From: Oscillospiraceae bacterium
GTDB taxonomy: Bacteria; Bacillota; Clostridia; Oscillospirales; Oscillospiraceae
DNA length: 64,000 bases
Direction: 5' to 3'
NCBI GenBank assembly: GCA_015068455.1
Contig: SVKO01000007.1
Coordinates: 62,001-126,000, forward strand
Shown here: piece after piece, positions 32,356-49,922 of the stretch
How the letters are laid out: each line of letters begins with the position of its first letter
Numbering within the stretch: the stretch's first letter is position 1
Notes under the pieces: model-generated
What the model was told of the DNA's origin: nothing
Seen by the model: the letters and a program-made list of their open reading frames with translations, nothing else
Database searches by the model: none
Made by a program: the position numbers and the translations under genes

Positions 32356-32679
32356 TCTCAATTGAGCGGCGGCCCATCGTGCCGCTCGAAGCCAGATATA
32401 CGACCGCCGGCTCCGCCGGCCAAGGCCAGACGGACAGCCGGGTCGAATGCCGATTGCCGCGGGTGCGGCGGCAGCGCAAGCTGCCATTATTGATTGAGCT
32501 CTGTGCTCAAATTTTATAAGTTGGTCACTATAAACCAATGCTGCTCCGCGGCAAACTTGTGAAATGGTCAATAAGAGTCGCTATATCTGTGCTCATGCTC
32601 TTCAACCGCCAGGATCATAGGGGGAAAATCGCCCTCTGTAGTTGCAAGTGATACGCGCGCAGCGTATCACTATTTTTTT
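32356..32679 (+). ncRNA. Structured leader RNA upstream of potA (candidate riboswitch or attenuator)
   Basis: About 324 nt between a consensus promoter and an intrinsic terminator, without a convincing reading frame. Visible local hairpins are GAGCGGC/GCCGCTC near the 5' end, GCCGGC-TCC-GCCGGC, GGCAGC-GCAA-GCTGCC (a GNRA-type loop), TTGAGC-TCTGT-GCTCAA (32494-32510), and TTGGT/ACCAA (from 32521). Two related segments start GCCAGA (near 32391) and GGCCAGACGG (near 32424). The final terminator ends 18 bases before the potA start, so potA expression must depend on read-through. I could not match it to TPP, FMN, SAM, purine, lysine, glycine, cobalamin, c-di-GMP, ykkC or ZTP riboswitch signatures, nor to 6S, tmRNA or RNase P RNA. 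Confidence 0.6.
32648..32679 (+). terminator. Intrinsic terminator just ahead of potA (attenuator)
   Basis: Perfect 9-bp stem GTGATACGC / GCGTATCAC with loop GCGCA (32648-32670) and the tail TATTTTTTT. The potA Shine-Dalgarno GGGGG begins only 7 bases after the T-run. Confidence 0.88.
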
Positions 32680-32697: not shown

Positions 32698-33815
<1,118 letters not shown>

Positions 33816-33819
<4 letters not shown>

Positions 33820-40622: not shown

Positions 40623-41807
40623 TTATTTCCCGTTGATGAGCTCCTCAAAGACCGGCAGGCTGCGGCGGATCATATCGTTGGACACGCAGTAGCAGATGCG
40701 GAAGTACTCCCGGCAGCCGAAGCTGGTGCCCGGCACGACCAGCAGATTCTTCTGCTTCGCCTTCTCCGAGAAGGCCTCGCTGTCGCCGTCCGGGGCCTGG
40801 ATGAACAGGTAGAACGCCCCGTCGGGCTTGGCCATGTGATAGCCCATGCGGCTGAGCTCGCGGTACAGCAGGGTGCGGTTCTCGTCATAGGCGGCCAGAT
40901 CGGGCATCTGCGTCACGCAGCGGGCCACGACGCGCTGCAGCAGCGACGGCGGGCACACATGGCCGCAGATCCGGGCCGCGCCGGCCACGGCGCAGTAGAG
41001 GGCCTCGGCGTCGGCGCAGGCATCCGGCACCAGCACGTAGCCGATGCGCTCGCCGGGCAGGCTCAGGGACTTGGACCAGGAGTAGCACACCACGGTGTTC
41101 TCATAGATCGCGGGCACCCAGGGGGCCTGTACGCCGCCGTAGACCAGCTCGCGGTAGGGCTCGTCGGCGATCAGATAGACGGGATGGCCGAATTCCTCCC
41201 CCTTGGCGCGCAGGATCGCGGCCAGGCGCTCCAGCGTCTCCCGGGTATAGACCACGCCGGAGGGGTTGTTGGGGGAATTGATGATGACGCCCTGGGTATT
41301 GGCATTGACGGCGGCCTCCAGGGCTTCGAAGTTGATCTGGAAATGCTCCATATCCGGGGGCACCACGGTGAATTTCCCGCCGTTGGCCTCGGTGAAGGGG
41401 CGGTACTCCGGGAAGAAGGGGGCCACGGTGAGGATCTCGGCCTCCGGGCCGGTGATCAGCGCCTTGAGCACCGACACCAGCGCCGGAGCCGCGCCGCAGG
41501 TGAAGAACAGGTTCTCCGGCCGGACGCCGGCTTGAAAGCGCGCGTTGAGGTCGTCTGCCACGGCCTTTCTGACCCCATCGTAGCCCGCGGCGGAGGTGTA
41601 GCCGTGGACCTGCAGGGTGTTTTCATTCTCCACAATGTCCCGGATGGACTCGTTCACAAGGGCCGGAGCCGGGATGGAGGGGTTGCCCAGGGAATAGTCG
41701 AACACGTTCTCCTTCCCCACCGCCTTTGCCTGGCGCAGGCCGTACTCAAACAGCTCGCGGATGCACGAGCGCATGGCGCCCAGTTCATACATCGTATTGT
41801 TCAGCAT
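40623..41807 (-). CDS. Class I PLP-dependent aminotransferase ending the aro operon
   Basis: A 394-residue fold-type I aminotransferase (aspartate/aromatic group). The PLP lysine is in CYSWSKSLSLPGERIGY, with NSPNNPSGVVY and ADEPYREL contacting the cofactor and Arg in FRICYCVSN binding the substrate carboxylate. As the last gene of the operon that makes prephenate-derived keto acids it is well placed to convert phenylpyruvate and hydroxyphenylpyruvate to Phe and Tyr; aspartate activity is equally possible from sequence. It overlaps aroQ by 7 bases. Confidence 0.88.
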   Translation of the reverse strand: MLNNTMYELGAMRSCIRELFEYGLRQAKAVGKENVFDYSLGNPSIPAPALVNESIRDIVENENTLQVHGYTSAAGYDGVRKAVADDLNARFQAGVRPENLFFTCGAAPALVSVLKALITGPEAEILTVAPFFPEYRPFTEANGGKFTVVPPDMEHFQINFEALEAAVNANTQGVIINSPNNPSGVVYTRETLERLAAILRAKGEEFGHPVYLIADEPYRELVYGGVQAPWVPAIYENTVVCYSWSKSLSLPGERIGYVLVPDACADAEALYCAVAGAARICGHVCPPSLLQRVVARCVTQMPDLAAYDENRTLLYRELSRMGYHMAKPDGAFYLFIQAPDGDSEAFSEKAKQKNLLVVPGTSFGCREYFRICYCVSNDMIRRSLPVFEELINGK

Positions 41808-42259
41808 GTTTCTTCTCCTTCTCTATGTGCATTCAGATATTCGACCAGGAAATCAATGGCTTCGCGGTAGCTGTCGAAGCCCCTGCCCTTGCAGGTGGTG
41901 AGGCACGCGAGCCCTGCGTAGGACACCGCCCGGAAGGGTTCCCGCGCGTCCACGTCGGACAGATGCACCTCCGCCGCGGGGAGCGACACCGCCTTGAGGG
42001 CGTCCAGAATGGCGACGCTGGTGTGGGTATAGGCGGCGGGATTCAGCACGATGGCGTCGAATTTTCCCAGTGCCTCCTGGATCCAGTCCACCAGCACGCC
42101 CTCATGGTTCGACTGGCGGATCTCGCACCCGACGCCCAATTGACGGCAATGGTTCTCGAGGAACCGCACGAGATCGGCATAGGTGCGTTTTCCATAAATG
42201 TCCGGCTCGCGCACGCCCAGAAGGTTCAGGTTCGGGCCGTTTAGAATGAGGATTTTCAT
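41801..42259 (-). CDS. aroQ: Type II 3-dehydroquinate dehydratase
   Basis: A 152-residue dodecameric-type dehydratase converting 3-dehydroquinate to 3-dehydroshikimate. It starts MKILILNGPNLNLLGVREPD, with the active-site Tyr in DIYGKRTYADL, NPAAYTHTSVAI and the His in EVHLSDVDAREPFR. The length is the family norm. ATG 42259 overlaps the aroE-aroK stop by 4 bases; the longer open frame upstream is inside that gene. Confidence 0.95.
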   Translation of the reverse strand: MKILILNGPNLNLLGVREPDIYGKRTYADLVRFLENHCRQLGVGCEIRQSNHEGVLVDWIQEALGKFDAIVLNPAAYTHTSVAILDALKAVSLPAAEVHLSDVDAREPFRAVSYAGLACLTTCKGRGFDSYREAIDFLVEYLNAHREGEETC

Positions 42260-43461
42260 CCGATCGCCTCCCATATCTTTCGCACGGTATCCGTCACCGT
42301 GCCGGTATTTTCGATGGCTGCCTCCGCCCAGGCCCGGTACAGGGGCTCGCGCTCGGCATAGAGGGCCCGGGGAGACCGACGCTGGGACAGGGGCCGGCCG
42401 GCCGTGGGCAGGTCCTCCAGAGGCCTGCGCAGCCAAATCAGACGTCCGTTCTGCCGCAGATGGTACCAGTTTTCCGGTCTCGTCACGCAGCCGCCGCCGG
42501 TGGCGATCACGCAGCCGGTTCTCTTTCCCAGCTCCGAGAGCACCTGCGTCTCCATTTCCCGGAAGGCATCCTCGCCCTGCGCGGCGAAGATCGCCGGGAT
42601 CTCGCCGAAGCGCTCGGTCACGATGGCGTCGGCGTCAAGGAAGGGCCGGCCCATGGCCTCGGCCAGGGCGGCGCCCACGGCGCTCTTGCCGCAGCCGGGC
42701 ATGCCGATGAGGACGAGATTCTCCATCCCGGCGCGCAGATTACGGTAAACCTGCCCCGCTTTTTCATCCGGGATCGACGTGCATGTAAACAGCTCCGCCG
42801 CCCGCTGGGCCTGCACCGTCAGCATCCAAAGGCCGTCGGCGTTCGGAATGCCGCGGCGCTCCGCGTCCTGCAGAAGCCGGGTGCGCAGGGGGTTGTAGAT
42901 GAGGTCGACCACGCCCCTGCAGGCGGGGAACTCGGAAAGCTCCACGGGGCTGCGCCCGGTTTCGGGCCACATGCCCACGGGGGTGGCGTTGACGATCAGC
43001 TCCGCGTCCCGGTCCATGTTCTCATAGTTGACGGGTCCGGTGCGCGAGACGATCTGTGCGTCCGCCCCGAGATCCCGCAGGGCCTGCAGCGCCATGGTCC
43101 CCGCGCCGCCGCTGCCCAGCACCAGGGCGCGCCTGCCCGCGGGGGCAAAGGGCGCGATCAGCGCGCAGAAGCCGGCGTAGTCCGTGTTGTCGCCGTACCA
43201 GCCGTCATGCCTGCGCACCATCGTATTGACGCTGCCCAGCCGCCGGGCGGCTTCGGAGAGCTCTGTGCAATACTCCATGACCGCCTTTTTATAGGGAATC
43301 GTCACGTTCAGCCCGCGGCAGGGCGTTTCCTTCAAAAATGCTTCCAGATCCTCCGGCTCCACGGGGAACAGATCGTAGTCATAACCCGCCAGCGCCCGGT
43401 GGAGCTCCGGCGAACGGCTGTGGCCCAGTTTCCGGCCCAGCAGGCCATACTGCGCCGTCAT
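42256..43461 (-). CDS. aroE/aroK: Bifunctional shikimate dehydrogenase / shikimate kinase
   Basis: A 401-residue fusion. Residues 1-about 240 are AroE: GRKLGHSRSPELH (shikimate site), NVTIPYK with the catalytic Lys, DNTDYAGF, and the NADP loop LGSGGAGTMAL. Residues about 245-401 are AroK: Walker A IGMPGCGKSAVG, DADAIVTERFG, and GGGCVTR. It reduces dehydroshikimate and then phosphorylates shikimate, two consecutive or near-consecutive steps, so fusion could channel the product. It overlaps aroQ and pheA by 4 bases each. Confidence 0.95.
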   Translation of the reverse strand: MTAQYGLLGRKLGHSRSPELHRALAGYDYDLFPVEPEDLEAFLKETPCRGLNVTIPYKKAVMEYCTELSEAARRLGSVNTMVRRHDGWYGDNTDYAGFCALIAPFAPAGRRALVLGSGGAGTMALQALRDLGADAQIVSRTGPVNYENMDRDAELIVNATPVGMWPETGRSPVELSEFPACRGVVDLIYNPLRTRLLQDAERRGIPNADGLWMLTVQAQRAAELFTCTSIPDEKAGQVYRNLRAGMENLVLIGMPGCGKSAVGAALAEAMGRPFLDADAIVTERFGEIPAIFAAQGEDAFREMETQVLSELGKRTGCVIATGGGCVTRPENWYHLRQNGRLIWLRRPLEDLPTAGRPLSQRRSPRALYAEREPLYRAWAEAAIENTGTVTDTVRKIWEAIG

Positions 43462-44603
43462 ACGATCTCCAGGTAGCTGCCGAGGTAGTGCACCTCTTCG
43501 CAGACCTCCTCAAGCTCCGAAATCATGCGTTCAAAGTCCGTGGAATAGATGGACGACTCAATGTCGAAATAGAACAGGAATTCAAAATCCCGGTTGGGAA
43601 TGGGTCGGCTCTCCAGCTTCTGGACGTTCAGCCCCAGGCAGTACAGCCGCGCCAGCACCTTGTACAGGGCGCCGGGCCGGTGGGGCACCGTGAGCATCAG
43701 CGTCGTCTTGTTGGTGCCGGGGTAGATCTCCGGCCGGGGGGCGATGCAGATGAACCGGGTGTGGTTGTTGTCGTTGTCCTGCATGTCCGGGATCAGGCAG
43801 CGCAGGCCATAGAGCTCGGCGCAGTGATAGGAGGCCAGAGCGGCCACATCCGTGCGGCCCATCTCCGCCACCATCTGGGCGGCGGCAGCGGTGTTGGAGC
43901 AGGCGTGCAGCATTGCGTTCGGCAGCTGCTCCAGATGGCTCTGGCACTGGCTCAGGGCCTGCTCGTGGGAGTAGATCTCCCGGATGGAATCCACGGTGGC
44001 GCCGGGGCAGGCCAGCAGGGCGTGGTTGATTTTGATGCGCGCGGCGCGCACGATGTAGCAGTTGTTGGCGATCAGCAGATCGTACACCTGCTTGACAGAG
44101 CCCGCGGTGCTGTTCTCGATGGGCAGCACGCCGTAGTCGCACAGCCCGGAAGAGATGGCGGAAAATACGCCCTCAAAGCTCTTGAGATAGGTGATCTCCG
44201 GGGCGCGGAAAAGCTTCTCGCAGGCCGCCGTGGAGTAGGCCCCCTCCACGCCCTGGCAGGCCACATGGGCCCGCTCCGGGAAGAGCTGGGGCGTCTCGGC
44301 GATGGCCTTGCGGATCATCTGCAGCTGCTGGGATTCCGGCTGCAGCAGGGTGTTCTGCTCGGCGCGGCTGAGCTCAAACAGCAGGGAGTAGACCACGCGC
44401 AGGGGCTGGGCCATGTCCTCCCGGGCGGCGCTCGTCAGGGCGGCGAGCTTCTCCCGCTCCCGACGGGTATCCAGGGCGGGGCGGCCGTTTTCCTTCTTCC
44501 ACACGGCGATCCGTTTGGAGATGTCCATGCGCTCGGTCAGCAGGGCGGCGAGCTGGGCGTCCACCGCGTCGATTTCTTTTCTCAGGTCGGTGATATCCAT
44601 CAT
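43458..44603 (-). CDS. pheA: Chorismate mutase / prephenate dehydratase (P-protein)
   Basis: A 381-residue bifunctional enzyme leading to phenylpyruvate. Residues 1-about 90 are an AroQ-type chorismate mutase (DLRKEIDAVDAQLAALLTER). Residues about 105-280 are prephenate dehydratase (GVEGAYSTAA, LPIENSTAGSV and the catalytic Thr in NNHTRFICIAP). The C-terminus is an ACT domain (RPGALYKVLARLYCLGLNVQ, then ESRPIPN), which in this family binds Phe for feedback inhibition. It overlaps aroC and aroE-aroK by 4 bases each. Confidence 0.96.
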   Translation of the reverse strand: MMDITDLRKEIDAVDAQLAALLTERMDISKRIAVWKKENGRPALDTRREREKLAALTSAAREDMAQPLRVVYSLLFELSRAEQNTLLQPESQQLQMIRKAIAETPQLFPERAHVACQGVEGAYSTAACEKLFRAPEITYLKSFEGVFSAISSGLCDYGVLPIENSTAGSVKQVYDLLIANNCYIVRAARIKINHALLACPGATVDSIREIYSHEQALSQCQSHLEQLPNAMLHACSNTAAAAQMVAEMGRTDVAALASYHCAELYGLRCLIPDMQDNDNNHTRFICIAPRPEIYPGTNKTTLMLTVPHRPGALYKVLARLYCLGLNVQKLESRPIPNRDFEFLFYFDIESSIYSTDFERMISELEEVCEEVHYLGSYLEIV

Positions 44604-45595
44604 TGTTCCTCCAGGATAGCGTCGTAAATGGCGGCGGCAGCGGCGGCTTCCACGCAGGGCACCGCCCGCAGGGCGATGCAGGGATCGTGCCGTCCGCGCA
44701 CGGAAAGGGTCGTTTCGGTCATGGTGCGCAGGTCCACGCTGTCCTGCGGTTTGGCGATCGAGGGCGTGGGCTTCAGGGCGGCCCGGAAGACGATGGGCAT
44801 GCCGGAGCTCAGGCCACCCAGGATGCCGCCGGCATTGTTTGTGCGGGTGCGCACAGCTCCATTCTCGATGCAGTAGGGGTCGTTATTCTCCGAGCCGCGG
44901 CGGTGCGCGCCTGCAAAGCCGCTGCCGAACTCGATGCCCTTCACTCCGGGGATACCGAAGATCGCCCGGGCGATGCGGTTTTCCATGCCGTCGAACATGG
45001 GCCCGCCGAGGCCGGCGGGGCAGCCGGTGACCGTGCATTCAATGACGCCGCCCACGCTGTCGCCCTCGGCCCGCGCAGCTTCCACGCAGTTTAGGAATTT
45101 GTCGGGGTCGGTTTCTTCGCCCACGGAGACAAGCCGCGCGCTGACCGAAATCCCCAGGCCCTCCAGCTGCTGAAGGCAGATCCCCCCGGCGATGCACAGG
45201 GGAGCCGTCAGCCGGCCGGAGAACTGGCCGCCGCCGGCATGGTCGCGGGCCTCGCCGAACTTCACCCAGGCGGTGTAGTCCGCGTGGCCGGGGCGGGGGA
45301 TGTATCTGAGCTCGTCGTAGTCGCCGGAACGGGTGTTTTCATTGCGGATGATGGCCGTTACCGGCGCGCCGCAGGTCACGCCGTCCACAAGACCGGCGAT
45401 GAATTCCGGCCGGTCCGCCTCTTTGCGGGGTGTGGTCCCCTTTTGCCCGGGGGCGCGGCGGTCCAGGAACCGCTGCAATTTCTCAAAATCGATCCGGATC
45501 CCGGCGGGCAGCCCCTCCATGGTCACGCCGATGGCGCTCGCGTGGGACTGGCCGAAGATGGTAAATCGAAAAACGTTTCCGCAGGTGTTGCTCAT
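44600..45595 (-). CDS. aroC: Chorismate synthase
   Basis: A 331-residue FMN-dependent enzyme that converts EPSP to chorismate. Diagnostic segments are FGQSHASAIGVTMEG at the start, RPGHADY, GGQFSGRLTAP and GGLSSGMPI. It is slightly shorter than many homologues (350-390). I start it at ATG 45595 because GGAGGAGG lies just before it, although ATG 45610 is in frame. It overlaps the aroA stop by 4 bases. Confidence 0.95.
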   Translation of the reverse strand: MSNTCGNVFRFTIFGQSHASAIGVTMEGLPAGIRIDFEKLQRFLDRRAPGQKGTTPRKEADRPEFIAGLVDGVTCGAPVTAIIRNENTRSGDYDELRYIPRPGHADYTAWVKFGEARDHAGGGQFSGRLTAPLCIAGGICLQQLEGLGISVSARLVSVGEETDPDKFLNCVEAARAEGDSVGGVIECTVTGCPAGLGGPMFDGMENRIARAIFGIPGVKGIEFGSGFAGAHRRGSENNDPYCIENGAVRTRTNNAGGILGGLSSGMPIVFRAALKPTPSIAKPQDSVDLRTMTETTLSVRGRHDPCIALRAVPCVEAAAAAAIYDAILEEQ

Positions 45596-46806
45596 GGCTC
45601 CTCCTCCCATGTCAGGCAGCCGCCGAGGTTAACATAATCTTTCCAAAATCCGGCGTAGGATTTTTCCGTTGCCTCCGCGCCGCGGATCGTGACGGGGCCT
45701 TCGCAGCCGGGGGCGCAGATGGCCGCGGCCATGGCGATGCGGTGATCGCCGCAGGCGTCCACCGTGCCGCCGGGAAGGCATCTCTGCCCTTCCACCCACA
45801 GGCCGTCGGGCAAAGCGCCCGCTTCAGCGCCGAGACTTTTCAGCATCTGTACGACGGATTCGATCCGGTCGCTCTCCTTGAGCCGCAGCCTGGCCGCGCC
45901 GGCGAACACGGTCCTGCCGGGGCAGAAAGCCGCCAGCGACGCCAGGGGCGGCACCAGATCCGGGATCTGGCCGCAGTCGATGACGGCATTCCCGGCGCAG
46001 ATGGCGTCGATGCATGCCGGCGCCGCCCGGTCGCCCTGCCGGGATGCGGGATCCAGACCGGTGACGGTCAATCGGCTGCCGCCGATGCGGTCGGCACACA
46101 GCCAGAAGGCGGCGTTGGACCAGTCCCCTTCCACGGCCAATTCGCCGGGACTTTGCAAAGAACCGGACGCAAGCCGAATGAGGGTTTCTTCTTTTATGAG
46201 CTCCGCGCCAAAGCGTTCCAGCGCGTCGCAGGTCATATCAAAATAGGGCGCGGACTCCATGGCCGTCTCCAGATGCAGGCTGCCCCCGCCCATGACGCAC
46301 AGGGCGAAGAGGATGCCGCTGAGAAACTGGGAGGACACATTGGCTGCCAGGGAAAAATCCTTCCCCGCAAGCTTCCCGCCGGCGCGGATGGTGTTTTCCC
46401 CGCGCTCCAAAACGGCGCCGTGGCGCCGAAGCTCCGACCACAGGGGCTCCAGGGGCCGCCGGGCCAGCCTGCCGTGCATCACAAACTCGGTATTCACGCC
46501 CAGGGCGCAGGCCACGGGCAGCAGGAACCGCAGGGTGGACCCGCTCTCCCCCACGTCCGGCACGGCGTCCTGCGCCGGTACAGTAATGGGGGCGACGGTG
46601 TAAGCCGTCCCGTCGTATTCGATCTCCGCGCCCAGGGCGCGCAGACAGCGGACGGTGGCCTCCACGTCCTGCCCGGTCTGACCGCACACGATGCGGGTTT
46701 TCCCCTTCGCCAGGGCGGCGCAGATCAGCGCCCGGTGGGCCTGGGATTTGGACGGCAGGGCCGCGATTTCCCCCCGCAGGGGCCGCGGCGTCAGACGGGC
46801 GATCAT
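45592..46806 (-). CDS. aroA: 3-phosphoshikimate 1-carboxyvinyltransferase (EPSP synthase)
   Basis: A 404-residue enzyme joining phosphoenolpyruvate to shikimate-3-phosphate. The substrate Lys is in LPSKSQAHRAL, the catalytic Asp in QIPDLVPPLA, and RLRLKESDRI and DACGDHRIAMA are typical. The loop that is GNAGTAxR in glyphosate-sensitive class I enzymes reads GESGSTLRFL here, a variation seen in other clostridial enzymes. It lies between aroB and aroC with 4-base overlaps. Confidence 0.95.
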   Translation of the reverse strand: MIARLTPRPLRGEIAALPSKSQAHRALICAALAKGKTRIVCGQTGQDVEATVRCLRALGAEIEYDGTAYTVAPITVPAQDAVPDVGESGSTLRFLLPVACALGVNTEFVMHGRLARRPLEPLWSELRRHGAVLERGENTIRAGGKLAGKDFSLAANVSSQFLSGILFALCVMGGGSLHLETAMESAPYFDMTCDALERFGAELIKEETLIRLASGSLQSPGELAVEGDWSNAAFWLCADRIGGSRLTVTGLDPASRQGDRAAPACIDAICAGNAVIDCGQIPDLVPPLASLAAFCPGRTVFAGAARLRLKESDRIESVVQMLKSLGAEAGALPDGLWVEGQRCLPGGTVDACGDHRIAMAAAICAPGCEGPVTIRGAEATEKSYAGFWKDYVNLGGCLTWEEEP

Positions 46807-47858
46807 TTGAGACCCGCCTTTATGAAATCACCGAGTTCGTCGGCTGCCAGTTCATACAGGACGCACTCCCCCACGTCCCGGGGCACCACCAGTGTGATGG
46901 CGTCGCCGTGGCGCTTTTTGTCCGCGGTCATGGCCGCGGCCAGGGCGTCGGCGCCGTAGGGGCAGGCGACGGGCAGGCCGAAGCGGATGAGGATATCATC
47001 CAGGGCGCGGGAACAGTCGGGGCTGCACAGATCGTTTTCCGCGCATGCCCGGGCAATGACGGACATGCCGATGGCCACCGCCTGGCCATGCAGGACCGTG
47101 AAGCCGCTGAGCTTCTCCACGGCGTGGCCCACGGTGTGCCCCAGGTTCAGGAGCTGGCGGCAGCCGCGGTCAAATTCGTCGGCTGTCACGATTTCCCGCT
47201 TGAATTCCACGCAGCGGGCGATGACGCTCTCCGGCCGGAAGGCGGGGCCGCTGACCATGAGATCGCTGAACATCTCGGCGTCGAACAGCATGGCATATTT
47301 GATGACCTCGGCGCACCCGGCCCGGAACTGCTTATCCGGCAGAGTGGCGAGGGTATCGGTATCGCAGAGCACCAGGTCGGGCTGGTAAAAGGCCCCGGCC
47401 AGGTTCTTGCCCGCGGGCAGATCGATGGCCGTCTTGCCGCCCACGGAGGAATCCACCGCGGCCAGCAGGGTGGTGGGGATCTGGACAAAGCCCACGCCCC
47501 GAAGATATGTGGCCGCCGCAAAGCCGGCCAGATCCCCCGGCACACCGCCGCCCAGGGCGACGACGCAGTCGGCGCGGGTCAGTCCGCTTTCGGCCAAAAA
47601 GTTCAGAAGAGACAGGTAGTTTTCCGCATTTTTCCCCTGCTCACCGTGGGAAAATACAAACTTTACAACGCGCAGATCCGCTGATGCAAGGCTTTGCTCC
47701 AGGCGGTCGGCATACAGCCCGTCCACGATATCGTCGGTGACGACAGCGCAGAGGCCGCCCGGGCAAAAGGGCCTGATTTTTTCTCCGGCCTCCGGCAGCA
47801 GTCCGGCGCCGATGTGGATCTCATAAGATCGGGAGGCGTTTACTTGAATGGTTCTCAT
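46803..47858 (-). CDS. aroB: 3-dehydroquinate synthase
   Basis: A 351-residue NAD- and metal-dependent enzyme converting DAHP to 3-dehydroquinate. Family marks are FSHGEQGKNAENYL, ALGGGVPGDLAGFAA, the Lys/Asn segment in VGGKTAIDLPAGKN, AEVIKYAML, and the metal ligands in NLGHTVGHAVE and LHGQAVAIGM. Overlaps both neighbours by 4 bases. Confidence 0.96.
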   Translation of the reverse strand: MRTIQVNASRSYEIHIGAGLLPEAGEKIRPFCPGGLCAVVTDDIVDGLYADRLEQSLASADLRVVKFVFSHGEQGKNAENYLSLLNFLAESGLTRADCVVALGGGVPGDLAGFAAATYLRGVGFVQIPTTLLAAVDSSVGGKTAIDLPAGKNLAGAFYQPDLVLCDTDTLATLPDKQFRAGCAEVIKYAMLFDAEMFSDLMVSGPAFRPESVIARCVEFKREIVTADEFDRGCRQLLNLGHTVGHAVEKLSGFTVLHGQAVAIGMSVIARACAENDLCSPDCSRALDDILIRFGLPVACPYGADALAAAMTADKKRHGDAITLVVPRDVGECVLYELAADELGDFIKAGLK

Positions 47859-48691
47859 GGGGTTCCGATCTCCTTTTTCCTCTGACTGCCGTCCTCCAGC
47901 AGGGCGTTCAGGGCGTCTGTGTCACTTCGTTCCAGGGCGTCTCGGTACTGTCCCAGGGATTCAAGCAGATCATCCAGCTCGTGAAGCAGGTTTTCCCGGT
48001 TCTCCAGGAACAGCTCGGTCCACATGCGCGGGTTCAGCTCCGCCACTCTGGTCATATCCCGGAAGCTCCCGGCGGAGAACCCCGCGTGCAGCGCCGCGCT
48101 GGGGCTGCGCACCAGGGCGTTGGAAATGAGATGGGGCAGCTGGGAGGTAAAGCCGATGCGCCGGTCGTGCTCTTCGGCTGTGGTGACGGGGAAATGGGCA
48201 AAGCCCAGGGGGCGCAGGACGGAGCGAAGCCGCTGCAGCAGCAGGATATCATCCGGGTCCTGCGGCACCAGCACCATGGAGGCCCCTTCGAACAGATCCG
48301 CCCGGGCGTACTTGATGCCGGAGCGCTCGCTGCCCGCCATGGGATGACCGCCCACGAAGGTAAAGCCGTATTCATTTGCCAGTCGGAAGCCCAGGGCGCA
48401 GATGCGCTCCTTGGTGCCCAGGCAGTCGATCACCAGGGCGTTTTTGCCGATGCGCGGGGCATTCTCCTCCAGCCAGGCCTTGCTCGCCGCCGGATAGGCC
48501 GCCAGGATCACAAGCTCGCAATCGCCGACGGTTTTTTCGTTCAGTTCGCCGTGCACCATGTCGGAAAGCCTTGCAAAGCCCTCCACAGAGGCGTTGGCGT
48601 CGCAGCCCAATACGGTGTGGTCCGTGCGCTCCCGGAATGCCTTGACCAGAGAGCCGCCGATGAGACCCAGTCCCAGGATGCCGACTTTCAT
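47855..48691 (-). CDS. tyrA: Prephenate dehydrogenase
   Basis: A 278-residue NAD(P)-dependent enzyme making 4-hydroxyphenylpyruvate for tyrosine. The dinucleotide loop is GILGLGLIGGSLVKAF, and GGHPMAGSERSGIKYA contains the catalytic His. The helical C-terminal dimerisation domain follows. There is no ACT domain, so direct Tyr feedback through such a domain is not expected. ATG 48691 (MKVGILG) overlaps the aroF stop by 4 bases. Confidence 0.94.
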   Translation of the reverse strand: MKVGILGLGLIGGSLVKAFRERTDHTVLGCDANASVEGFARLSDMVHGELNEKTVGDCELVILAAYPAASKAWLEENAPRIGKNALVIDCLGTKERICALGFRLANEYGFTFVGGHPMAGSERSGIKYARADLFEGASMVLVPQDPDDILLLQRLRSVLRPLGFAHFPVTTAEEHDRRIGFTSQLPHLISNALVRSPSAALHAGFSAGSFRDMTRVAELNPRMWTELFLENRENLLHELDDLLESLGQYRDALERSDTDALNALLEDGSQRKKEIGTP

Positions 48692-49689
48692 GCCAGGGCC
48701 TCCCGCACCGCGCGCACCCGGCGGGCCAGGTCGTCGAACTGGGCCGGCGTCAGGGACTGGGCGCCGTCGCACTTGGCGTGGGCCGGGTCGTTGTGCACCT
48801 CGATCATCAGGCCGTCGGCGCCGCAGGCCGCGGCGGCCAGGGCCATGGAGGGCACCAGCTTCGCCTCGCCCGTGGCGTGGCTCGGGTCCACCACCACCGG
48901 CAGGTGGGTCAGCTCCTGGAGCTTGGGCACCGCGGACAGATCCAGCGTGTTTCTTGTATAGGTTTCAAAGGTACGGATGCCCCGCTCGCAGAGGATGACC
49001 TGCTCGTTGCCGCCGGCCATGATGTACTCGGCGCTCATGAGCAGCTCCTTGAGTGTGTTGGCAAGGCCGCGCTTCAAAAGCACCGGCTTATGGATGCGGC
49101 CCAGCTCCTGCAGAAGGTCAAAATTCTGCATATTGCGCGCCCCGACCTGAATGATATCCACATCCTCGAACAGGGGCAGATGGTTGACGTTCATGATTTC
49201 GGACACGATGGGCAGTCCCGTGGCCCGCTTGGCCTCGGACAGGAGCTTGAGGCCCTCGAAGCGCAGACCCTGGAACGCATAGGGGGACGTGCGGGGCTTG
49301 AAGGCGCCGCCGCGCAGGATCGTGGCGCCGGAGGCCTGGATGGCGCGGGCCACCTCCAGGATCTGATCCTCGCTCTCCACGGAGCAGGGGCCGGCGATCA
49401 TGCAGAAGTTGCCGCCGCCCAGCTTGACGCCGCCCACTTCGATCACGGTATCGGCGGGATGGAACATGCGGTTGCACTGCTTGAAGGGCTCGCCCACGCG
49501 GCGCACCGCCATGACCATCTCCAGGCTCTCTAAAAGCTCCACATCGATGCCTGCGGTGTTGCCCACCAGGCCGATGATGGTATAATCCGTGCCCACGGAC
49601 AGATGGATATCCACGCCCTGGCTCTTGAGCCAGGCGATCAGATGGTCCCGCTTTTCTTCGGTGGTCTGGGGTTTGAGTACAACGATCAT
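48688..49689 (-). CDS. aroF: 3-deoxy-7-phosphoheptulonate (DAHP) synthase, type I beta
   Basis: A 333-residue entry enzyme of the shikimate pathway, condensing PEP and erythrose-4-phosphate. An N-terminal ferredoxin-like regulatory domain (about 1-70) precedes the KDSA-like barrel with IAGPCSVESEDQI, LRGGAFKPRTSPYAFQG and VDPSHATGEAKLV. This is the first gene of the operon, preceded by an attenuator terminator that ends 17 bases ahead of ATG 49689; GGAGGG lies in between. Confidence 0.95.
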   Translation of the reverse strand: MIVVLKPQTTEEKRDHLIAWLKSQGVDIHLSVGTDYTIIGLVGNTAGIDVELLESLEMVMAVRRVGEPFKQCNRMFHPADTVIEVGGVKLGGGNFCMIAGPCSVESEDQILEVARAIQASGATILRGGAFKPRTSPYAFQGLRFEGLKLLSEAKRATGLPIVSEIMNVNHLPLFEDVDIIQVGARNMQNFDLLQELGRIHKPVLLKRGLANTLKELLMSAEYIMAGGNEQVILCERGIRTFETYTRNTLDLSAVPKLQELTHLPVVVDPSHATGEAKLVPSMALAAAACGADGLMIEVHNDPAHAKCDGAQSLTPAQFDDLARRVRAVREALA

Positions 49690-49705
49690 TTTTTTGCCCT
49701 CCTGC

Positions 49706-49740
49706 ATAAAAATCAGCCGCACAGCGTATCCTGTGCGGCT
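49706..49740 (-). terminator. Attenuator terminator of the aromatic operon
   Basis: On the - strand, AGCCGCACAG and CTGTGCGGCT form a perfect 10-bp stem with loop GATACG (49740-49715), followed by GATTTTTAT. It lies between the leader peptide and aroF, so only read-through transcripts reach the operon. Confidence 0.9.
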
Positions 49741-49780
49741 GGTGGTAGTTCTTTTGAACCGGAGCGATTGCCCGACCCGT

Positions 49781-49864
49781 TTAAGCGCAGCACAAAATAC
49801 TATTACTTCTCTTGGAAAAGTAATAGTAATAAAAGGATACGAACATAACGGACATACGGCTCAT
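49781..49864 (-). CDS. Phe/Tyr-rich leader peptide of the aromatic operon
   Basis: A 27-codon frame on the - strand starts at ATG 49864 with CAGGAG 8-9 bases upstream and stops with TAA at 49781. The peptide begins MSRMSVMFVS and continues with the run FYYYYF, giving four Tyr and three Phe codons in nine positions. The Tyr codons pair with downstream codons in a stable hairpin (ACTATTACTT with AAGTAATAGT), as in the 1:2 pause hairpin of classic attenuators. A terminator follows 41 bases after the stop. This is the layout of ribosome-mediated attenuation responding to charged tRNA-Tyr and tRNA-Phe. Confidence 0.85.
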   Translation of the reverse strand: MSRMSVMFVSFYYYYFSKRSNSILCCA

Positions 49865-49893
49865 ATTTATACGCTCCTGTCTGGATTGGGTTC

Positions 49894-49922
49894 ATCGTAG
49901 CACATCCGGGGCCCTTTGTCAA
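49894..49922 (-). promoter_or_regulatory. Promoter of the aromatic operon
   Basis: On the - strand, TTGACA (49922-49917) and TACGAT (49899-49894), 17-base spacing, 30 bases ahead of the leader peptide. Confidence 0.8.

Follow-up and report, generated by a model that had tools for sequence, protein, structure and literature searches.

The minus strand of the 64,000-nucleotide stretch of DNA analysed here (the window) carries, just in front of a nine-gene aromatic operon, a leader that we read, with a probability of about 0.94, as a predicted ribosome-mediated transcription attenuator sensing charged tRNA-Phe and tRNA-Tyr. This Phe/Tyr-rich peptide switch very probably turns the aromatic genes on only when the cell is short of Phe or Tyr. 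The leader contains a translatable ORF with a start codon and a ribosome-binding site behind a promoter, a conserved run of codons for the product amino acids, an intrinsic terminator between the ORF and aroF, and an antiterminator that excludes the terminator and is predicted to be free upon stalling.

All elements lie on the minus strand between positions 49922 and 49690. The sigma-70-like promoter (49894–49922) consists of TTGACA, 17 nt and TACGAT with a TG before the −10 element; the pattern was found once, compared with 0.3 expected in shuffled sequences. The leader ORF of 27 codons (49781–49864, MSRMSVMFVSFYYYYFSKRSNSILCCA) was identified by ORF reading and by comparison, and its ribosome-binding site AGGAG is seen 9 nt upstream (49874–49878). 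The sensor codons TTT TAT TAC TAT TAC TTT (49817–49834), which were likewise supported by comparison, encode FYYYYF. Their Tyr codons form the 5′ arm of hairpin 1:2 (49798–49828, TACTATTACTTTTCCAAGAGAAGTAATAGTA), which was defined by folding and by pairing over relatives and is a probable pause hairpin and helper. The intrinsic terminator 3:4 with its T-run (49708–49741, CAGCCGCACAG-GATACG-CTGTGCGGCTG-ATTTTT) has a perfect 11-bp stem. An earlier, sequence-only reading had listed the promoter, the ribosome-binding site, the 27-codon ORF with FYYYYF, the Tyr-codon hairpin and the terminator before aroF, and we found each of them where it had been placed. In addition, an antiterminator was defined by pairing and covariation between strand 2 (GTATTTTGTGCTGC, 49787–49800) and strand 3 (GCCGCACAGGATAC, 49726–49739), the latter comprising the terminator 5′ arm and loop. 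Strand 2 GUAUUUUGUGCUGC (49800–49787) and strand 3 GCCGCACAGGAUAC (49739–49726) form 13 bp with one mismatch at −15.6 kcal/mol, and antiterminator 2:3 and terminator 3:4 are rivals for the same strand 3. Hairpin 1:2 shares only few bases with antiterminator 2:3. Compared with dinucleotide shuffles, the fold of the window leader has a z-score of −5.6.

The operon starts with aroF, encoding DAHP synthase (48688–49689, ATG at 49689, ribosome-binding site GGAGG). Then follow, all on the minus strand, tyrA (prephenate dehydrogenase, 47855–48694, start approximate), aroB (46803–47858), aroA (45592–46806), aroC (44600–45595, start approximate), pheA (chorismate mutase-prephenate dehydratase, 43458–44603), an aroE-aroK fusion with shikimate dehydrogenase and shikimate kinase in a single ORF (42256–43461), aroQ (type II dehydroquinase, 41801–42265, start approximate) and, as the last gene, a PLP-dependent aminotransferase (40623–41807). 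All nine ORFs are tightly spaced or overlapping, in good agreement with the earlier claim that a whole aromatic operon of nine genes lies behind the attenuator. The operon includes the Tyr branch (tyrA) as well as the Phe branch (pheA) and is without a trp gene.

In the pheA and trp leaders of E. coli and Salmonella, the leader peptide holds codons for the product amino acid, a 1:2 hairpin lies over the sensor codons, 2:3 is the antiterminator and 3:4 the terminator. The window leader has the same layout of ORF, 1:2, 2:3 and 3:4. Unlike these leaders it belongs to another phylum, gives no Rfam leader match and has Phe and Tyr codons in front of a nine-gene operon, and relatives place its RNA core, equipped with different codons, in front of different genes. 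From these parts we infer how starvation, stalling and folding would follow each other. Transcription would begin some 20 nt upstream of the leader ORF. Under a shortage of Phe or Tyr, the leading ribosome would stall in the FYYYYF codons and cover strand 1, leaving strand 2 free to pair with the emerging strand 3. With 2:3 paired, the polymerase would continue into aroF and the other eight genes of the operon. Given an ample supply of both amino acids, the ribosome would reach the stop codon and pass over or cover strand 2, so that the 3:4 terminator could fold and transcription would end before aroF. It would be the translating ribosome, and not hairpin 1:2, that blocks strand 2.

The conservation of the leader was assessed in 103 non-redundant aroF upstreams drawn from family-level genomes and the GTDB contig collection, using as criterion for an F/Y-rich leader the presence of 5 or more F/Y within 8 codons of a short ORF. 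Such an ORF was seen in 87% of them, compared with 2.5% of dinucleotide shuffles and 3% of antisense strands. Runs of Trp, His and Ile in the same upstreams were at background level only. Leu runs showed a lesser excess (18% vs 2.3%), which we take to be a shifted reading of the same T-rich run. About 13% of the upstreams had no recognisable F/Y leader, and this share was larger among distant relatives. Both Phe and Tyr were present in all 92 leaders examined. The core codons were mixed (n = 750; TTT 250, TTC 45, TAC 184, TAT 144), and therefore synonymous codons exchange and F and Y exchange as well. The start codon, the ribosome-binding site and the frame of the ORF are also kept. The sequence-only reading had proposed to look in relatives for the persistence of the Tyr/Phe run; in this comparison both frame and run persist, with exchange among synonymous and Tyr/Phe codons. 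Among cultured relatives, Sporobacter termitidis also carries a leader of this kind before its aroF. A promoter scoring at least 10/12 was found upstream of 78% of the relatives' leaders and 3% of shuffles. The sole same-genus relative sampled has the run FYYF, and its peptide is ended by a TGA in the place of the window's TGC; the strand-2 motif is kept.

In the relatives the antiterminator motif starts 23 nt (interquartile range 20–25) after the last F/Y codon, which is far enough for it to stay clear of a ribosome stalled in the run. It falls into each of the three leader frames (12/14/32), so that what is conserved here is the RNA and not the peptide. Judging from these comparisons, the F/Y run is conserved as codons and the strand behind it as RNA. 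The two explanations that deny the codons a sensing role can be weighed against this. If the F/Y codons were a by-product of a U-rich 5′ arm selected for hairpin 1:2, the ORF would be no sensor. The Tyr codons do build this arm and the 1:2 pairing is conserved, yet the F/Y runs of relatives often reach past the hairpin, the start codon, ribosome-binding site and frame are conserved, and on one and the same RNA core the codons track the gene, with Trp before trpB2, Phe before pheA and Tyr before aroF-tyrA. We regard such a by-product as extremely unlikely. The other explanation is nascent-peptide arrest, in which the peptide, inside the ribosome tunnel, would itself bind free Phe or Tyr and cause the stall, in the manner of TnaC and Trp. 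Peptides of the split-operon paralogues described below are rather similar between genera (FGWARFMGAGFFGM; YGYGYYRCYF), as arrest would have it. In the main family, however, the residues flanking the run vary freely, F and Y differ in how many there are and in what order, and the C-terminal part may be cut off or read in different frames. An arrest of the TnaC type would moreover turn genes on at high amino acid levels, which makes no sense for biosynthetic genes, and we find it very unlikely here.

Support for a reading of both Phe and Tyr comes from operons that are split. Six genera have two copies of aroF. In 6/6, a Tyr-rich leader precedes the copy that is joined to tyrA and a Phe-rich leader the copy in aroB-aroA-aroC-pheA operons, with F:Y ratios of 11:32 before aroF-tyrA and 32:8 before aroF-aroBAC-pheA. 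Examples are MLKRTGYGYGYYRCYFASGVSACP (Tyr-rich, aroF-tyrA) and MTRRSLTTASFLFSFGWARFMGTGFFGMGK (Phe-rich, aroF-aroB-aroA-aroC-pheA). As the six genera probably share one duplication, the split may have been a single event; the difference between the leaders has been retained in all six. Leaders of operons that include tyrA as well as pheA, such as that of the window, have both Phe and Tyr. These split operons serve as a natural experiment and support the claim, made from the window alone in the earlier reading, that the leader would read both Phe and Tyr.

The RNA part of the switch was examined for pairing and covariation. An intrinsic terminator follows 91 of the 92 leaders. Over 31 aligned relatives, 97.5% of the terminator cells are paired, with 24 double changes compared with 4.6 in shuffles; for hairpin 1:2 the paired share is 87.7%, compared with 84.4% in shuffles. 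An in-register pair count on the MAFFT alignment gave 91% pairing for 2:3 without covariation, because the core columns show almost no variation and the loop is wrongly aligned. In its place we used permutation tests that are free of register and that, like the Fisher test given below, ignore shared ancestry. Strand 2 pairs with its own terminator at −14.8 kcal/mol and with those of others at −11.5 kcal/mol, a difference reached in 0 of 10,000 such ancestry-blind permutations. Likewise, across 49 loci the match between the bases of the loop, which the terminator leaves unpaired, and the bases 5′ of the strand-2 motif was equalled in 0 of 20,000 permutations, again with ancestry ignored. The matches change locus by locus (e.g., GUAU:AUAC, GUAA:UUAC, GCGA:UCGC, GUGA:UCAC). 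The covariation that argues for the predicted 2:3 pairing comes from the terminator-loop side and not from the core columns, and several different sequence types support this pairing, the ancestry-blind permutations notwithstanding.

Folding was then considered with the ribosome imitated by masking. Masking of the run plus 12 nt led to 2:3 pairing in 95% of leaders, a share that fell to 42% with strand 2 shuffled. When strand 1 of the window leader is masked, the terminator is still the minimum-energy fold at full length, and the antiterminator must therefore win kinetically. In unmasked truncated folds, 85% retain at least 6 of the 2:3 pairs. Hairpin 1:2 thus leaves most of 2:3 possible, and the off state must depend on a ribosome at strand 2 or the stop codon. 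We had considered the idea that 1:2 excludes 2:3 and dropped it, as free-energy masking showed that 1:2 alone is not enough to block 2:3. The earlier description of this leader as the full trp/phe-type logic is supported in its parts, to which a covarying antiterminator is now added. As a small correction, hairpin 1:2 has only a partial overlap with the antiterminator and could not decide the outcome alone.

A further explanation is that a T-box or a protein-dependent (TRAP-like) terminator controls the operon and that the small ORF is incidental. T-boxes are in use in the window's genome, where trpE, trpB2, tyrS and pheS are under their control. An Rfam search of the leader, however, gave no family at the gathering cut-off, Phe_leader and the T-box RF00230 included, and at E-values up to 1 there was no match on the leader strand and one chance match on the other strand. 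The same genome yielded 16 T-boxes elsewhere, which served as positive control, and the search of 40 further aroF-upstream loci gave no match. A T-box in this leader had been named beforehand as the find that would speak against peptide attenuation; none was found by the Rfam search. For TRAP, about 11 GAG/UAG triplets at a spacing of 2–3 nt were taken as the pattern, and the window leader has 5 scattered triplets, none of them at this spacing, and hence no triplet series. We assign next to no probability to control by either system. NCBIfam has no model for F/Y leader peptides.

A covariance model, R1, was built from the aroF leaders. It matched once in the window's genome and gave 94 matches in 81 of 201 family genomes. 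Forty matches that did not adjoin a known aroF, one of them from the class search, were assigned to genes named by NCBIfam: aroF (14), trpB2 (6), a TrpX-like ABC transporter (5), a sodium/solute symporter (4), pheA, paaK and aroB (3 each), with 2 unassigned. The core GAUUUGYGAUGC or GCGAUUUGUGCUGC together with a matching terminator is found as the same DNA element in most gene-assigned leaders, and the codons differ with the gene. Trp codons are present in 6/6 trpB2 leaders (e.g., MRKFSGIAFWWFWFRFTDSSVRSICDA) and in 4/32 others (Fisher p = 8e-5, a test that ignores shared ancestry). Among the assigned matches, F:Y is 38:8 in pheA and paaK leaders and 55:52 in aroF leaders. As trpB2 is under a T-box in the window's genome and behind a Trp leader in relatives, its control has changed between relatives, which makes this gene a direct example of exchange between a T-box and a leader peptide.

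We consider it likely that in Oscillospiraceae and related Clostridia one RNA chassis, made of the hairpin, a UUUGUGCUGC-type antiterminator strand and the terminator, has been placed before many aromatic genes with its codons exchanged (Phe and Tyr, Phe, Tyr or Trp). Such an evolution would resemble that of T-box specifiers, would include swaps with T-boxes at trpB2, and would help to assign transporters and the direction of PaaK. Since sensor codons show the purpose of the gene product, the family predicts transporter specificity and operon function. The leader before paaK, the gene for phenylacetate-CoA ligase, is Phe-rich, which suggests that PaaK may serve Phe synthesis from phenylacetate and not its breakdown. 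Tyr-rich or mixed aromatic leaders were seen before the sodium/solute symporter and the TrpX-like ABC transporter, both of which are predicted to be aromatic amino acid importers. The leaders of the TrpX relatives hold Tyr and Phe and no Trp, and for this reason “tryptophan transporter” may be a misnomer here.

Beyond the family, F/Y leaders were found in 81% (order) and 54% (class) of 48 aroF upstreams each, compared with 4–5% of shuffles, and a strong terminator stood behind the leader in 97% and 85%, respectively; over all groups of wider relatives that have a leader, the share with a terminator ranged from 85% to 100%. The peptide attenuator had been called unusual in the sequence-only reading. 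This emphasis does not hold, as it is the rule for aroF in the sampled family-level relatives and present at about half to four fifths of the aroF upstreams sampled in the order and class. The R2 model matched in 22/291 class-level genomes only; with this small reach, the F/Y leaders of more distant families are not accounted for by the R1/R2 core and may have diverged RNA or a separate origin. In some class-level relatives the F/Y leaders before aroF are longer and encode a peptide that is conserved in part (GFYFSxGYLFCKK-like); these are outside R2 and possibly represent a second RNA type.

Teaching presents leader-peptide attenuation as belonging to proteobacteria and assigns its task in Firmicutes to T-boxes and TRAP. 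In the large group of gut bacteria considered here, it emerges as the common way of controlling aromatic biosynthesis. For Firmicutes, the literature searched describes only isolated His leader peptides and a single candidate, in front of aroF in Acholeplasma. The latter, uORFC-13-1, is a candidate uORF attenuator with a U run coding for Phe and an adjacent terminator; it comprises 24 examples with at least one Phe codon, from Acholeplasma and environmental sequences only (PMC8632094). Like it, the window leader has a Phe-coding uORF and a terminator before aroF. Compared by description only, the two differ in that the accessible part of the uORFC-13-1 account mentions no Tyr or antiterminator (PMC8632094). 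The His leader peptides of Firmicutes replace T-boxes, have a terminator and an antiterminator, and are known from few species each in the Bacillus cereus group, some Eubacteriales and Erysipelotrichales; they read histidine only, unlike the window leader with Phe and Tyr (PMC2965389; PMC9413887). Phe, Tyr and Trp T-boxes act on aromatic genes of Bacillus and Clostridium and share with the window leader the aromatic tRNA charging signal, the gene class and the choice between termination and read-through (PMC2494555). Unlike the window leader, a T-box works by direct binding of tRNA and independently of translation, and it is absent at aroF here. Attenuation of the trp/phe type is a known mechanism; what appears undescribed is the leader family, together with its spread and its codon-swapped reuse. 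We found no description of the F/Y leader family in the literature searched, to which subscription papers mostly did not belong, and an earlier report is possible.

The Rfam search also gave a match to SpF59_sRNA elsewhere in the window (32401–32453, plus strand; 64.8 bits, cut-off 37.2). This RNA is the ldcC RNA described from Streptococcus (Rfam). The match lies about 250 nt before the gene for a PotA-like ABC transporter ATPase (32698–33819).
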